A stretch of DNA of 64,000 nt, taken from Pontiellaceae bacterium B12219 (GTDB lineage Bacteria; Verrucomicrobiota; Kiritimatiellia; Kiritimatiellales; Pontiellaceae). The position numbers were made by a program, and so were the translations under genes. Below are positions 56,334 through 64,000 of this stretch, piece after piece (positions within the stretch are counted from its first letter, which is position 1; every line of letters begins with the position of its first letter). A model generated the notes under the pieces. The model was not told the origin of the DNA. It made no database searches and worked only from the letters and a program-made list of their open reading frames with translations. The stretch covers positions 1-64,000 of the forward strand of contig JARNMJ010000016.1 of assembly GCA_029432795.1 (NCBI GenBank), written 5' to 3'.

Positions 56334-56342
56334 GAATGCTGA

Positions 56343-56412
56343 ACCACGGAATACACAGAATGCACTGAAACCAGATCAGTCCGCATTCCGTGTCTTCTGT
56401 GTATTCCGTGGT
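56343..56412. repeat. Large inverted repeat ACCACGGAATACACAGAA
   Basis: Perfect 18-bp arms at 56343-56360 and 56395-56412, with further partial symmetry inside (TGCaCTGA/ATCAGTCCGCA). It lies between the binding protein and ATPase genes, so it may form a hairpin in their transcript. The word ACCACGGAATACAC is known as part of dispersed repeats in several bacterial phyla. Confidence 0.75.
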
Positions 56413-56421
56413 TAATTCTTG

Positions 56422-57669: not shown

Positions 57670-59874
57670 ATGAACTATTACGCACATAGTAATACCGAGG
57701 ATCCTTCCCGTTGGCAACCGCTCGAAGACCATTTAGAGCAAGTCGCCGAACTCGCAGCACAATTTGCCCGCCCCTTCGGCGGCGAGGAATGGGCGCGGCT
57801 CGCCGGACTCTGGCATGATTTAGGCAAATATCATCCGGACTTCCAGCGTAAGCTGAAAGGGGAAAGTATTCGCGTTGTCCATTCCGAGGCGGGTGGGCAT
57901 TTGGTTTCACTTAAAGAATGGCGTGGGATGGATGTAATTTTTTCGTGGCTGATTATGGGGCACCACGCCGGGTTGGCTGATTACGGCGCCGGGGATGCCG
58001 GAGGAAAGGCGCTGGAACCGAAGATGCGCCATCCTGAAAAATCCAATGACGTGTTGTCGAATGTTCCTGCGATAATTTTGGACCAAATACCGCCCGTAAA
58101 GCCGCCAATGTTTGCGAATGCAGATCGGTATCCGGATCAGGCGTTTTTTGTCCGCATGTTGTACTCTTGTTTGGTGGATGCCGATTTTCTCGATACGGAA
58201 GCGTTCATGGATGCATCGCGTAAGGCCGCACGTCCAAACAATCCCGCGAGCATGGAAGAGCTGTTATCTTGTTTCGATGCGCATATGGCACGATTCGATG
58301 GAGCGGAAGGTACGGTGAATCAATGCCGGGCGCAGGTGTTGGCACAGTGCCGCGCCGCTGCTGAGCAAGCGGGCGCATTTTCACTGACGGTTCCGACGGG
58401 CGGCGGAAAGACGCTGGCGTCGCTGGCATTTGCGCTGCGGCACGCAGTGAAGCACCAAAAGCGCCGCATCATTTATGTGATTCCCTACACGAGCATCATT
58501 GAGCAAACCGCTGAAGTGTTTCGTTCAATTCCTGGTTTCGAGGATGCCGTACTGGAACATCATTCGAATCTGGTTTTTGACGACGATCAGGAAATCGCGG
58601 AAAAACGCGCACGACTCGCGATGGAAAACTGGGATGCGCCCATTGTGGTGACGACGAACGTCCAGTTTTTCGAGTCGTTGTATGCGAACCGGAGCAGCCG
58701 GTGCCGCAAGTTGCATAATATTGCGAACAGCGTGGTGATTTTTGATGAAGCGCAATGTTTGCCGCCCGCATTTCTGCGGCCCTGTGTGTTCGCGATTCGA
58801 GAATTGGCTCGGCACTACGGTGTCACGCCTGTGCTTTGCACCGCTACGCAGCCCGTGCTCACGGAAACTAAGTCGTTTGATTTTGAATTCACCGAAGGTT
58901 TTAAGCAGGTCACTGAAATTATCGACAAACCGAATGCATTGAGTCAGCAACTTGCGCGCGTTCAGGTGGAAGTGCTCAATGAATTGAACCCGGTTGATCT
59001 CGCTGTGTTGGCCGATCAGTTAAAAGCGGAATGCAGTTCGTTACTCTGCATTGTAAACCGCAAGGCGGATGCGCGGGCACTTGCCGAGCGGCTTCCTGGG
59101 GAAAATACCATTCATCTTTCGACCAACCTTTGCGCGGCGCACCGGTTCGAGGTGCTCTCGGAGATTCGCCAACGGTTGAAGTGCGGTGAGCACCTGTTGG
59201 TGATCAGCACGTCATTGGTCGAAGCGGGGGTTGATCTCGATTTTCCGGTGGTCTACCGCGCATTGGCCGGACTCGACTCCATTGCTCAAGCCGCCGGACG
59301 ATGCAATCGCGAAGGAAAACTGAAAATGGGCCGCACGGTCGTTTTTATGCCGGGAAAACAGCCCGACTACGTAAAGCCCGCCGCATCGCTCGCGCTGAAC
59401 TATTTGAAACCCGACCGTTTGAACCGCATCTTTTTGCCGGAAACATTCCGCGCCTATTTCAAGCAATACTTTTTTATGAAAGGGACGCAGGCGCTCGATC
59501 AAAAAGGCATCCGTGAGCTCTTGCCGAATGAGACAGCCGCGATCCGCTTCCAAACCGCCGCAGAACGTTTCCGTCTCATTGATTCCGATTGGCAGCTTCC
59601 CGTCATTATGCCTTTCCGCGAAGCGTCGGAGCTGGTCGATCAGCTATTGACGCGCAAATGGGAAGCCAAAGCCATCTGCCGGAAACTGCAGCGCTATACC
59701 GTCAATATTTCCAAGCGCGTGGTGGATCAATTGGTGGATCAGGATTACGCGCGGCCCGTGGAAGGATTCGAAGGAATGGTTTTTCTGCATACCAGGCAAC
59801 TCTACGACGAACGTTTCGGATTCATTCCGCCCGACTCGATTGAAAGCTTTAATTCGGAGGAATTAGTCATATGA
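57670..59874 (+). CDS. cas3: Type I-C CRISPR-associated helicase/nuclease Cas3
   Basis: 734 residues. N-terminal HD nuclease (about 1-210) with WHDLGKYHPDFQ, SEAGGHL and MGHHAGLADY. The SF2 helicase follows: Walker A TGGGKTLASLAFALRH, TSIIEQTAEVF, the DEAQ box in VIFDEAQCLPP, CTATQPVL (motif III), and motif VI QAAGRCNREG. It unwinds and degrades DNA after Cascade binds a target. Its stop overlaps an ATG (ATGA) preceded by GGAGG, which looks like the ancestral start site for the next cas gene, now separated from it by an insertion. Confidence 0.95.
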   Translation: MNYYAHSNTEDPSRWQPLEDHLEQVAELAAQFARPFGGEEWARLAGLWHDLGKYHPDFQRKLKGESIRVVHSEAGGHLVSLKEWRGMDVIFSWLIMGHHAGLADYGAGDAGGKALEPKMRHPEKSNDVLSNVPAIILDQIPPVKPPMFANADRYPDQAFFVRMLYSCLVDADFLDTEAFMDASRKAARPNNPASMEELLSCFDAHMARFDGAEGTVNQCRAQVLAQCRAAAEQAGAFSLTVPTGGGKTLASLAFALRHAVKHQKRRIIYVIPYTSIIEQTAEVFRSIPGFEDAVLEHHSNLVFDDDQEIAEKRARLAMENWDAPIVVTTNVQFFESLYANRSSRCRKLHNIANSVVIFDEAQCLPPAFLRPCVFAIRELARHYGVTPVLCTATQPVLTETKSFDFEFTEGFKQVTEIIDKPNALSQQLARVQVEVLNELNPVDLAVLADQLKAECSSLLCIVNRKADARALAERLPGENTIHLSTNLCAAHRFEVLSEIRQRLKCGEHLLVISTSLVEAGVDLDFPVVYRALAGLDSIAQAAGRCNREGKLKMGRTVVFMPGKQPDYVKPAASLALNYLKPDRLNRIFLPETFRAYFKQYFFMKGTQALDQKGIRELLPNETAAIRFQTAAERFRLIDSDWQLPVIMPFREASELVDQLLTRKWEAKAICRKLQRYTVNISKRVVDQLVDQDYARPVEGFEGMVFLHTRQLYDERFGFIPPDSIESFNSEELVI

Positions 59875-59896
59875 AAAAGGCGGCCCGAAGGCCGCC
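59874..59896 (-). terminator. UUCG-capped intrinsic terminator of the crRNA-like RNA
   Basis: Minus strand: GGCGGCC, loop TTCG, GGCCGCC, then TTTTT. On the plus strand the same hairpin has no T-run, so it should terminate only minus-strand transcription. Confidence 0.75.
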
Positions 59897-59902
59897 CGAA
59901 TT

Positions 59903-59918
59903 ACTGAATATATTCAGT
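59903..59918. promoter_or_regulatory. Perfect 16-bp palindrome inside the spacer-like segment
   Basis: ACTGAATATATTCAGT is fully self-complementary. It could be an operator for a dimeric regulator, or a hairpin-forming part of the small RNA. Confidence 0.45.
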
Positions 59919-59923
59919 TTATG

Positions 59924-59955
59924 GTTTCAATCCACGTTCAATAAGAACGGCAATG
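59924..59955 (-). CRISPR. Solitary type I-C-like CRISPR repeat
   Basis: Minus strand: CATTGC, stem CGTTC, loop TTATT, stem GAACG, then TGGATTGAAAC. The last 11 nt equal the common type I-C handle, and the last 13 nt (CGTGGATTGAAAC) match common I-C repeats. Stem and handle keep the register in which Cas5 cuts (just 3' of the stem), while the stem bases differ from usual GC-rich repeats but still pair. No second full copy is found in the window. Confidence 0.75.
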
Positions 59956-59960
59956 TGGAG

Positions 59961-59990
59961 GTTGCACGGGACGTTAGAGCTGTGCAAGGA
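59961..59990. other. Second hairpin with repeat-like features
   Basis: TTGCACGG (59962-59969) pairs with CTGTGCAA (59980-59987; one wobble) around a 10-nt loop, followed by ATTGAAAT at 59993-60000, close to the ATTGAAAC handle. It may be a diverged, oppositely oriented repeat, but the match is weak. Confidence 0.35.
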
Positions 59991-60100
59991 AAATTGAAAT
60001 TGTCATATACTAATATAAAAGGTTATGGAAAAAAGTTTTTGACGCGGGGTGCCGAAGGGGCTATTTGTTTTTTAACAACGAGCCGATAGGAGGTGTTGAT

Positions 60101-60766
60101 ATGAATGAGATTCCGAGAATTAGTGCAAATAAACTTGGCGAGTACATGAATGCAACAGTTAGCCGGAGACGTCAGATCATTAAGGATCAGAAAAGTCCAA
60201 AGAAGTTTAAGGCTGCTTACTATCGGCCTGCTCAAAATGCTCTGAGTAAGTATATTTCCGGTGAATGGGCGTTACCTCAGCTTTTCGATAAATTAGCGGT
60301 TTTGCATGATGGCTCTGATGGCAGGGAATATCAGAACCGCGTCAAGGGATGTTCGGCAGGTGCAATAGAAGCATTCTTGGCTAATTACGAAGATTTTAGT
60401 TTTCCGGGGAGAGTCAACAGTGTGAGTTCCTTTTCCAGTATGGCCATGGATTTAAATGGAGTGATGATTTCAGTACGACCAGATCTTTTGCTTGAGAATG
60501 CCGATGACTCCGAGGTTGTCGGGGCTGTGAAATTTCATTTTTCGAAGTCTGTTCCTCTAGGAGATGTTGGGAGTGATTATGTGGCACTGATTTTACGGCT
60601 TTATTTGGAGGAAGAAATTGGGGTGAAAAATGTCGATCCCAAGAAATGTATTGTTTTAGATATTCACGATGGAAATTTACGATTTGCTCCAAAATCCTTC
60701 GTAAAACGGAAACGCGATATTCAGGCTGCTTGTGATGAAATTCGCTCTGGTTGGGAAACAATTTGA
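60101..60766 (+). CDS. Hypothetical protein inserted in the cas operon, possible PD-(D/E)XK-like fold
   Basis: 221 residues from ATG 60101, AGGAGG 7 nt upstream. Residues 1-50 are helical and basic (ISANKLGEYMNATVSRRRQIIKDQK). Residues 125-160 read VRPDLLLENADDSEVVGAVKFHFSKS; Asp of RPD and Lys of VKF sit where the PD-(D/E)XK fold has Asp and Lys, although the second acidic residue is not seen. It has no Cys cluster, so is not Cas4. Codon use is more A/T-rich than cas3 or cas8c, consistent with separate origin. I recall similar small proteins of unknown function but cannot name a family. Confidence 0.75.
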   Translation: MNEIPRISANKLGEYMNATVSRRRQIIKDQKSPKKFKAAYYRPAQNALSKYISGEWALPQLFDKLAVLHDGSDGREYQNRVKGCSAGAIEAFLANYEDFSFPGRVNSVSSFSSMAMDLNGVMISVRPDLLLENADDSEVVGAVKFHFSKSVPLGDVGSDYVALILRLYLEEEIGVKNVDPKKCIVLDIHDGNLRFAPKSFVKRKRDIQAACDEIRSGWETI

Positions 60767-60780
60767 TTGGAGAAATGATG

Positions 60781-61443
60781 ATGAAAAAAAGTAAACCCTT
60801 CCGGTTGCGAGTGAGCGGCGAAAACGCCTGCTTCACCCGTCCGGAAATGAAAGTGGAGCGCGTGTCGTATGATGTGATTACGCCATCGGCGGCGCGCGGT
60901 ATCTTCGAAGCGATTCTGTGGAAACCCGCGATCCAGTGGAATATTCGGCAGATCGATGTACTTAAACCGGTAAAGTGGGAATCCGTGCGGCGCAATGAAG
61001 TGGGCAAAAAGATGGGTAAGCCCTCAGCGGGTCATATGGCGGGCGGACGGCATAAGCCGTTGGAACTCTTTGTTGAAAAGGAGCGCCAACAACGTGCGGG
61101 CCTTTTTCTGAAGCATGTCGAATATGTGCTTCATGCTGACTTTGAAATGACAGCAAAGGCAGGCGCTGACGATACGGTGACTAAATTCGAGCAGATGTTT
61201 TTGCGGCGGGCGTCGCAGGGCCAATGTTTTCAGCAACCTTATTTCGGCTGCCGCGAATTCCCCGTCGACTTTGAATTGATTGGGTTGAAGGATGAGCTGC
61301 CTGAGCCAATTCAGGAAACACGCGATTTGGGGTGGATGCTCTACGATTTGGATTATCGCGGAAAGGAGCCGATGCCTCAGTTTTTTCATGCGCAACTCGT
61401 GAACGGATCATTGGACTTGAGGGACGTGGAGGTGCGGTCATGA
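60781..61443 (+). CDS. cas5c: Cas5c (Cas5d) pre-crRNA endonuclease of type I-C
   Basis: 220 residues from ATG 60781; GGAG 8 nt upstream (ATG 60778 also possible). SGENACFTRPEMKVERVSYDVITPSAARGIFEAILWKPAI in parts is the family N-terminus. In type I-C, Cas5 replaces Cas6 and cuts the repeat 3' of its stem; Tyr, Lys and His residues act there, and LKHVEYVLHADFEM supplies His and Tyr candidates. Stop overlaps the cas8c start by 4 nt. Confidence 0.95.
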   Translation: MKKSKPFRLRVSGENACFTRPEMKVERVSYDVITPSAARGIFEAILWKPAIQWNIRQIDVLKPVKWESVRRNEVGKKMGKPSAGHMAGGRHKPLELFVEKERQQRAGLFLKHVEYVLHADFEMTAKAGADDTVTKFEQMFLRRASQGQCFQQPYFGCREFPVDFELIGLKDELPEPIQETRDLGWMLYDLDYRGKEPMPQFFHAQLVNGSLDLRDVEVRS

Positions 61444-63242
61444 TTCTGCAGGCATTAGCTCAATATTACGATCGGTTACTGCATGATCCGAAGATCAATA
61501 TTGCGCCTTTGGGGTTTGAGCAGAAGAAGATCGATTTTTTAATTCTGCTTACAGAACAAGGTACCTTCAGTGCACTTTGGGATTTGCGGGAAGGAACTGG
61601 AAAAAAGAAGCAGGGCCGAATGACGCGTGTTCCAAAGGGCGTCAAGCGGACTGTCGGAGTCGCGGCGAATCTATTGTGGGACACCGCACCCTACGCGCTG
61701 GGCCATTTATTGCGCTCCGATAAGAAAGCGAAGTTGGCCTATCGTGGAAAGGGCGCAGCGAAGCGGCTCGACCTCTCCAAATCCAAAAAAGAGTTGGCGA
61801 AGATGAAGGCACGCTTGCCCAAACAGTACGCGGCTTTTATTGAGGAAATTGAAAAGACCTTTGAAGGCTGTGATGACGCTGGCATTCGGGCGGTATTGGC
61901 TTTTTTGCGAACTGCTGAATTTGATGTGTTGTTCGCGCATCCGCTGTGGCAAGAGGTGGAAGCGAGCGGGGGAAATCTGACCTTCGCGCTTGAAGATGGT
62001 GAGATGATTTGTCAACGCCCGGCAGTGGTTCGGGCGATTGTTGAGCAGGCGAAACCATCTACAGGCGGACAGGTGTGTGCGGTGCGGGGCGAACCCGATG
62101 AACTGGCGGAGCTGCATACGGCCATCAAAGGGGTGTGGGGAGCACAATCATCCGGAGCCAATATCGTCTCGTTCAATTTGGATGCCGTGAGTTCATTCGG
62201 GAAGAAGCAGGGGCATAATGCACCCATTGGAAAGCAGGCGGAGTTCGCCTACACGACTGCGCTGAATTATCTGTTGGCGAGCGATCGGCAGCGGATGCAG
62301 GTGGGCGACGCGAGCACGGTCTTCTGGGCAAGAGATCCCTCAGATTTCGAACAGACCTTTATTTCCTGCTTTGAACAGCCCCAAAAAGGCGAAGAGGCAG
62401 TGAAGTACGATAAAATCCGTTCCCTGCTTCGTTCAGTCAAAAGCGGTGTTCCGGCGGAGGACGAGATGCGCCCCTTTTATGTATTGGGTCTCGCTCCCAA
62501 TGCCGCACGTATTTCGATTCGGTTTTGGTATGAAGGTAATTTGAAGCAGATCAAAGAGCGTATGGCTCGTTTCTTCGAAGAAATTGAAATGGTTCGGTCA
62601 AAACGGGATCCCGAGTTCCTTTCGCTCTTACAACTGCTCAGCTCCACCGCTACGGAAGGGAAGATCGATAATCTGCCGCCGAATATTGCGGGTGATTTTG
62701 CGCGTGCAGTTTTCATGGGTGGAAATTATCCGCGTACGCTGCTTTCGAACGCGGTTCGGCGCTGCAAGGCGGAGCAGCGCGTTACATACGCACGGGTTTC
62801 AATCATTAAGGCGTGTTTAGTGCGAAACGCGCAGTTTCCAAATTTAACTAACCAGGAGGTCTCAGTGGCATTGGATAAAACATATGACGACATGGGCTAT
62901 GTGTTGGGGCGCTTATTCGCTGTGCTCGAACGTATTCAGGAGAAAGCGCAGCCGGGAATTAATAAAACGATTCGCGATACCTATTTCGGCGCCGCGACCA
63001 GTTCTCCGCAGATCACGTTTAAGCGATTGGATGAACTTTCGATTCATCATCTCGCGAAGATCCGAAATGGCGGTCAATCCATCGTGTGGTACGAGCGTTT
63101 GAAGCAGGAAGTTTACGACCTGATTCCCGCATCAGGAATTCGCAACCAGTTGACCTTGGAAGAGCAGGCGCGTTTCGCCGTCGGCTACTATCATCAGCGT
63201 CAGGATTTTTTCACCAAAAAAGAAATTGAAGGAGAAGTGTAA
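61440..63242 (+). CDS. cas8c: Cas8c (Csd1) large subunit of type I-C Cascade
   Basis: 600 residues from ATG 61440, GGAGG 7 nt upstream; the frame is open upstream through cas5c but the start is fixed by the overlap. [35 protein letters not shown] in parts, then [41 protein letters not shown] in parts and [14 protein letters not shown] are typical Csd1 blocks. It recognises the PAM and recruits Cas3. A Cas11-like internal product from its C-terminal part is known in I-C systems; a likely internal start lies at 62863-62865 (GTG) after an AGGAGG-like site (62853-62858). Confidence 0.94.
62863..63242 (+). CDS. Candidate internal translation of cas8c (Cas11c-like small subunit)
   Basis: In frame within cas8c, GTG 62863 follows CAGGAGGTCTCA, a strong ribosome site about 5-6 nt away that serves no other gene. 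It would yield about 126 residues beginning (V/M)[26 protein letters not shown], here in parts, an all-helical segment. Type I-C Cascade is known to contain a small subunit made by internal initiation in cas8c. Placement and length match that precedent, so this is well supported by inference. Confidence 0.7.
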
Positions 63243-64000
63243 TGAGTAATCCCATTAATAATCGATATGAATTCGTACTGCTGTTCGACGTAAAGGACGG
63301 AAACCCTAATGGCGATCCGGACGCGGGCAATCTGCCGCGCGTCGATCCGGAAACAGGCAATGGTCTCGTCACGGATGTTTGCCTGAAACGTAAGGTGCGC
63401 AACTATATTCAGCTGACGCAGGGCGATAAGCCGGAGATGAAAATTTTCATTAAGGAAAAGGGCATCCTCAATACGATGATTGATGCTGCGCATGAAGATG
63501 ATTTCGTGGCAAATAAGGAAAAACCGGGCGATAAAACCGAGGCGGCCCGTCAGTTCATGTGCAGAAATTATTTTGATATCCGTACCTTTGGCGCGGTCAT
63601 GAGCACCGGGAAAAATGCCGGCCAGGTGCGCGGCCCGGTTCAACTGGGATTTGCCCGCAGTAAGGACCGCATTTTTACCGGAGAGCACACCATCACGCGC
63701 ATGGCGGTTGCGACGGAAGCTGAGGCCGAAAAGCAGAAGGGCGACAACCGAACCATGGGGCGCAAGTTCACTATCCCCTACGGTCTCTACGAAGTGCATG
63801 GCTTTATCTCTGCGCCGTTGGCGAAGCAGACGGGGTTCTCCGAGGAGGACCTTGAACTGTTCTGGAATGCGCTGATTAATATGTTCGATCACGACCGCTC
63901 CGCCGCGCGTGGTGAAATGGCTCCGCAGAAACTGATCGTTTTCAAGCACGCTTCCGAACTCGGAAATGCCCCGGCGCAGAAGCTGTTTAATCTGGTGACG
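63242..64000 (+). CDS. cas7c: Cas7c (Csd2) backbone subunit, C-terminus beyond window
   Basis: 253 codons visible; the frame continues past 64000. ATG shares one base with the cas8c stop (TAATG), AGGAGA upstream. [20 protein letters not shown] begins the protein and [20 protein letters not shown] follows, the hallmark of Csd2. Several copies coat the crRNA spacer. In canonical operons cas4, cas1, cas2 and the array follow, outside the window. Confidence 0.95.

Follow-up and report, generated by a model that had tools for sequence, protein, structure and literature searches.

Known CRISPR-repressed modules and a putative relative in type I-C

CreTA modules are known for the type I-B system of Haloarcula and the type I-F system of Acinetobacter (PMC8501985, PMC10097628). 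In the archaeal CreA RNAs that have been tested, nucleotides 1-5 and 7-11 of the guide pair with a TTC-flanked target while nucleotide 6 remains free; in one tested archaeal CreA, each of the positions 1-5 and 7-11 was required (PMC8501985). In the Acinetobacter I-F CreA, it is nucleotides 2-5, 7-9 and 13-17 that are required (PMC10097628). A further account describes CrePA, in which a CRISPR-repressed protein toxin, CreP, is combined with a crRNA-like antitoxin, as well as CreR, a crRNA-like RNA with a limited match to the promoter feeding the Cascade genes (PMC12737573). Finally, RNA anti-CRISPRs (Racr) can also consist of a solitary I-C repeat unit (RacrIC1), once beside a protein gene (PMC10651486).

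The stretch of 64,000 nucleotides analysed here (the window) carries a type I-C cas operon with a solo repeat between cas3 and cas5c. We consider it fairly probable that positions 59874-60766 constitute an inserted regulatory module in this operon, in which a CreA-like guide represses a candidate guard gene. In this locus, CRISPR probably restrains a gene that damages the cell.

In several aspects the locus is reminiscent of CreTA. An ectopic, degenerate solo repeat with a processing hairpin and a 5' handle lies within the cas locus, and there is a candidate PAM-flanked match, a short one, to the presumed neighbouring promoter, with nucleotide 6 unpaired. The one-repeat form ends in a terminator, as in H. 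hispanica (PMC8501985), and the insertion follows cas3, ahead of the next cas gene, as it does in Acinetobacter I-F (PMC10097628). It differs from CreTA in its subtype (I-C, with Cas5c and no Cas6), in its shorter seed (nucleotides 1-5 and 7-8) and in having a divergent gene for a 221-aa protein where CreTA has a small-RNA toxin (creT). On the minus strand, the interval between target and repeat holds only a 10-codon frame without Shine-Dalgarno sequence. CreTA in the strict sense was therefore rejected, the candidate gene being the 221-aa ORF on the plus strand. The layout fits CrePA in so far as a protein gene is proposed to be under CRISPR repression by a crRNA-like antitoxin; however, Pfam gave no match to the 221-aa protein, which lacks the KilA-N domain typical of CreP (PMC12737573). 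With CreR (PMC12737573), the locus may share a crRNA-like RNA that matches, over a limited length, a putative promoter leading towards the Cascade genes, but it has an interposed extra gene, present only together with the guide. Racr elements, in contrast, are viral, lie outside host cas operons and are not promoter-targeting guides. A literature search, with most subscription papers outside its range, returned no I-C example of such regulation, CreR in I-C included, and no PIN toxin under the control of a CRISPR guide.

Anatomy of the solo repeat element

On the plus strand, the operon consists of cas3 (type I-C, 57670..59874), the 221-aa ORF (60101..60766), which is a candidate CRISPR-repressed gene of toxin- or abortive-infection-like type, cas5c (60778..61443), encoding the repeat-processing subunit in type I-C, cas8c (61434..63242) and cas7 (63242..64000). 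The last gene extends past the window and is followed on the contig by cas4, cas1, cas2 and the array. The solo repeat element lies on the minus strand, at 59949-59874. The initial annotation had recognized in it a 5-bp stem, an intact handle, a guide-like segment and a UUCG-capped terminator, and all of these parts were confirmed. The repeat stem-loop, CGTTC-TTATT-GAACG with a 5-bp stem (59935..59949), stands directly 5' of an intact type I-C 5' handle, TGGATTGAAAC (59924..59934), which is identical to the handle of the array repeat and of which this is the sole exact occurrence in the 64-kb window. Next comes a guide of 34 nt, CATAAACTGAATATATTCAGTAATTCGGGCGGCC (59890..59923), the array spacers measuring 32-35 nt, and then a UUCG-capped intrinsic terminator, GGGCGGCC-TTCG-GGCCGCCT plus a T tract (59874..59897), which extends to the cas3 stop codon. 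Guide and terminator overlap: the 5' arm of the latter is made up of the last 8 nt of the former, and a 34-nt guide would stop at the terminator loop. The genome contains one copy of the element. A short inverted repeat, TTGCAC...GTGCAA (59960-59990), which could be an operator, lies upstream of the repeat stem.

The true array begins at 67,250 on the contig, 7.3 kb from the solo repeat, and its repeat, GTCGCGCCCCGCCCGGGGCGCGTGGATTGAAAC, is present in 49 exact copies and a truncated last one. In comparison to this repeat, the handle and the adjoining stem position are the same, while the stem sequence is different and still pairs, just as had been claimed before, and the paired G directly before the handle is retained. 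Cas5c processes type I-C repeats. Since the handle is common to both repeats and the paired G is kept before it, Cas5c would cut the solo repeat at the same place, between stem and handle.

A PAM-flanked match in the divergent intergenic region

The region between the repeat stem and the 221-aa gene (59956..60100) presumably contains divergent promoters, one for the guide RNA on the minus strand and one for the 221-aa gene on the plus strand. Its core (59990-60035) has a G+C content of 18%; a scan of both strands with the sigma-70 consensus found no promoter. The guide starts with CATAAACT. A putative target (60020..60030) precedes it on the same strand, within the AT-rich core, and is composed of a TTC PAM (60030-60028) and the seed CATAACCT (60027-60020); the protospacer would extend to 59994. 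For the Xanthomonas oryzae I-C system, too, TTC is the reported motif (PMC8406640). Nucleotides 1-5 and 7-8 of the guide match the target, nucleotide 6 is mismatched, and nucleotides 9-11 are without match. The mismatched position is the one left unpaired in known CreA RNAs (PMC8501985), and the pairing is shorter than in any tested CreA. The target lies upstream of the 221-aa gene, which in turn leads into cas5c.

The site is the only one with that PAM and seed in 64 kb. Shuffled guides reach 7/7 matches in 0.04% of cases within the intergenic region (P ~4e-4) and in 0.5% over the whole gap (P 5e-3), and none of the 48 array spacers matches as well as the guide. Under a criterion of at least 7 of 10 positions, applied to the whole gap, the match loses its significance (P 0.22). 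An alignment with two 1-nt gaps, of CATAAACTGAATATATTCAGTA to CATAACCT-TTTATATT-AGTA, has a P value of 0.001, and this similarity would fit drift by small indels. As other possible targets, the cas3 promoter and the region before the array were considered and rejected, the seed match being absent there; a search for a better target elsewhere in the genome gave one TTCCATAANCTGA match on another contig, at about chance expectation.

A probable insertion between cas3 and cas5c

Between cas3 and cas5c the window has a gap of 907 bp, about 890 bp more than its close relatives. The spacing is 15 bp in a genome with a 98% identical Cas5c (G024) and the same in three others (G034, G033 and G115; 69-74% identical Cas5c). 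The extra stretch, holding the guide RNA and the divergent 221-aa gene, is absent in all four. The simplest reading of this presence/absence polymorphism is the gain of one module in the lineage of the window, with replacement of the last cas3 codons; it is less likely that all four relatives have lost it. The module was seen in one genome only, and no member of the genus and no plasmid searched carries the same stretch, except for a 24-bp terminator-like match in G009. That the closest relatives lack the stretch goes beyond the initial annotation, as do the 221-aa ORF and the PAM-flanked guide match.

The 221-aa ORF is preceded by the Shine-Dalgarno sequence AGGAGG, and its stop codon lies 11 nt upstream of the cas5c start. 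Its product has no match in Pfam, NCBIfam, PHROG or PADLOC and no recognized toxin domain, and a profile search against the PDB was without result. The AlphaFold2 model, for which two sequences served as input, is unusable (pLDDT 41). By eye, the protein has a PD-(D/E)XK-like look (RPD, VGAVK); this assignment was rejected, as only RP and one K are kept in three members. Relatives are rare. One, 40% identical, occurs among repeated small ORFs in an Acidovorax record that is flagged as unverified, in a stretch that looks, by eye, like a chromosomal integron cassette array. Another, 25% identical, occurs in G183 in the vicinity of defence-like genes, named by eye as SNF2-type helicase, XRE and metallopeptidase, and of an integrase, likewise named by eye; there is also a partial match on a Planctomyces plasmid. 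Phages and viral contigs yielded no homologues. In its behaviour, the 221-aa gene resembles mobile genes with an accessory or defence role.

Solo-repeat guides in related I-C loci

A search for the same element in related I-C operons, in two samples of loci from the same phylum, revealed the same anatomy with stronger guide-target matches. Solo repeats bearing a host-type handle are present in 11 other I-C loci, nine times in the cas3-cas5c gap (L050, L051, L055, L056, L070, L071, L139, L141 and L142) and twice upstream of cas3 (L067 and L154). Their stems differ in sequence and most still pair; those of L055 and L141 have no good stem beside the handle. In nine of the 11 loci, the match to a TTC-flanked site covers 9-10 of the ten guide nucleotides 1-5 and 7-11: ten of ten in L051, L055, L070, L141, L142, L067 and L154, and nine of ten in L050 and L056. 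Nucleotide 6 is mismatched in seven of these nine strong matches, the exceptions being L050 and L141. The remaining two guides match at 8 of 10 positions (L139) or at 9, with GTC instead of TTC (L071). Against gap shuffles, which preserve base composition only, the first sample has nine guide-target pairs (including L060, probably due to chance) versus 0.1 expected, and the second has three gap pairs versus 0.3 expected (L159, without handle, among them), in addition to L154 before cas3. L060, which came from a relaxed scan, and L159, from the second sample, have no repeat-like hairpin with handle and were set aside as chance.

What lies between target and repeat varies. In three loci, the target is flanked by the genes of a FitA-like antitoxin and of a PIN toxin (Pfam assignments), and the solo repeat follows the toxin gene. 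The latter is on the minus strand in the cas3-cas5c gap in each case (4603-4193 in L051 and 4559-4134 in L055, numbered with the cas genes on the plus strand; 1055-654 in L141). In L050 and L056, ORFs of 62-63 aa (4989-4801 and 5066-4875, respectively, minus strand) occupy the space between guide target and solo repeat; they look alike, have hydrophobic stretches and are candidate small membrane toxins. A clear ORF is absent from the corresponding interval of L070 (about 5215-5095, minus strand). The RNA is closed by a long helix, AGATTGTCTGC/GCAGACAATCT, and contains a motif resembling a tRNA T-arm, GGGTTCGATTCCC. It is possibly an RNA toxin that mimics tRNA; ARAGORN does not call it as a tRNA. 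The guides of L067 (about 2712-2800) and L154 (about 1960-2100) have their matches in the region before cas3, where no toxin ORF was seen, and going by their sequences these solo repeats may exert CreR-like autoregulation in type I-C.

The locus closest to the window in layout is L139 (3181-4000), with a MazE-like antitoxin gene on the plus strand, the solo repeat on the minus strand and a PIN gene on the plus strand that ends just before cas5c; in the window, the 221-aa ORF occupies the place of this PIN gene. The L139 guide has a gapped match like that of the window, beside an intact PIN gene. In a further locus (L121, 2965-3514, minus strand), the gap holds a toxin-antitoxin-like DUF433-DUF5615 pair and the solo repeat is absent.

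It could be imagined, with about even chances of being correct, that in this phylum the I-C operons have, in the cas3-cas5c gap, an exchangeable slot for guard modules under CRISPR repression, with mostly proteins as effectors. The effectors proposed for it, each with its own guide, are PIN toxins, small membrane-like proteins, a tRNA-like RNA and, in the window, a new toxin family, a list to which we would give equal odds of being right or wrong. Within this slot, the PIN toxins would stand apart from their own FitA- or MazE-like antitoxins, which is again an evenly balanced proposition.

Proposed mechanism and alternatives

The initial annotation had taken the element for a crRNA-like regulatory guide, either CreTA-like or cas-repressing, in an I-C operon. 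The PAM-flanked seed match nearby and the elements of the same anatomy with stronger matches in related I-C operons lend support to this. In the proposed mechanism, the minus strand would be transcribed and the RNA cut by Cas5c at the repeat-like hairpin; the processed small RNA would start at UGGAUUGAAAC, end at the terminator and be loaded as a CreA-like guide into the I-C Cascade. With pairing limited to a short seed, Cascade would settle on the AT-rich divergent promoter region (TTC plus CATAA.CT) without cutting it, thereby blocking transcription of the 221-aa gene and possibly also that of the guide itself. When Cascade is lost, or occupied by anti-CRISPRs or many crRNAs, the promoter would be released, and induction of the 221-aa gene would extend to the downstream genes for Cascade. 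Since it sits where a related locus has a PIN toxin, the 221-aa gene most likely guards the CRISPR system, by analogy, acting as a toxin or an abortive-infection effector. As the gene leads into cas5c-cas8c-cas7, some CreR-type feedback on Cascade is probably involved as well.

Such feedback might also be the main function. The guide would then be a CreR-like autorepressor throttling the Cascade operon (221-aa gene, cas5c, cas8c and cas7) according to crRNA levels, with the 221-aa gene as a co-regulated passenger or accessory. In line with this, the targeted region leads into cas5c with an intergenic gap of only 11 nt, two of the related guides have targets before cas3 without visible toxin ORF, and type I and V-A systems are described as having CreR widely (PMC12737573). 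We nevertheless regard it as rather unlikely: the closest relatives run from cas3 to cas5c without gap or guide, so that the guide appears to have arrived together with the 221-aa gene, and in most of the related gap elements the target stands ahead of a toxin-like gene and not immediately ahead of cas5c.

It is less probable still that the window contains a decaying module, a former CreA guide of which the pairing has drifted below the working threshold. The need for two 1-nt gaps to obtain a good guide-target alignment, as if the two had been better matched earlier, and the mismatch at nucleotides 9-11 could be understood in this way. The stem, handle, terminator and ORF with Shine-Dalgarno sequence are all intact, though, and in L139 a similarly gapped match accompanies an intact PIN gene.

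A Racr-like RNA anti-CRISPR originating from a mobile element, the solo repeat of which would jam Cas5c/Cas7 and the 221-aa protein of which would be an anti-CRISPR, seems very improbable. A type I-C Racr adjoining an Acr gene is known (PMC10651486), and the 221-aa family is mobile; here, however, the element is inside a host cas operon, its stem has diverged, phage and viral collections gave no match to it, and its guide has a PAM-flanked local match and belongs to a family of such guides. That one repeat-like unit beside cas genes is an array remnant with random drift can practically be dismissed: the array is intact beyond cas2, the relatives have no array between cas3 and cas5c, the solo unit comes with a terminator of its own and a putative target nearby, and both sides of its stem have changed while the handle stayed identical.

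Implications and further observations

If the module works as proposed, RNA-guided self-regulation or addiction would extend to type I-C, a common subtype with processing by Cas5c and no Cas6. The related loci suggest that protein toxins of ordinary toxin-antitoxin pairs have come under Cascade control several times over. The idea is directly testable, because guide and target are short and side by side, and the cas3-cas5c gap becomes a place to seek new toxins.

The operon has a second insertion point. The cas7-cas4 gap (8193-9059 in L002, 7787-8308 in L035) holds differing genes among close relatives: here, a gene for a HEAT-repeat-like protein with a nuclease-like C-terminus, and in G024 a gene that looks, by eye, like a member of the 23S rRNA intervening-sequence family. 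Elsewhere in the window, an imperfect palindrome of the CCACGGAATACACAGAA type, with 28-nt arms (89%), stands at 56342-56413 between two genes of an apparent zinc-type ABC transporter.
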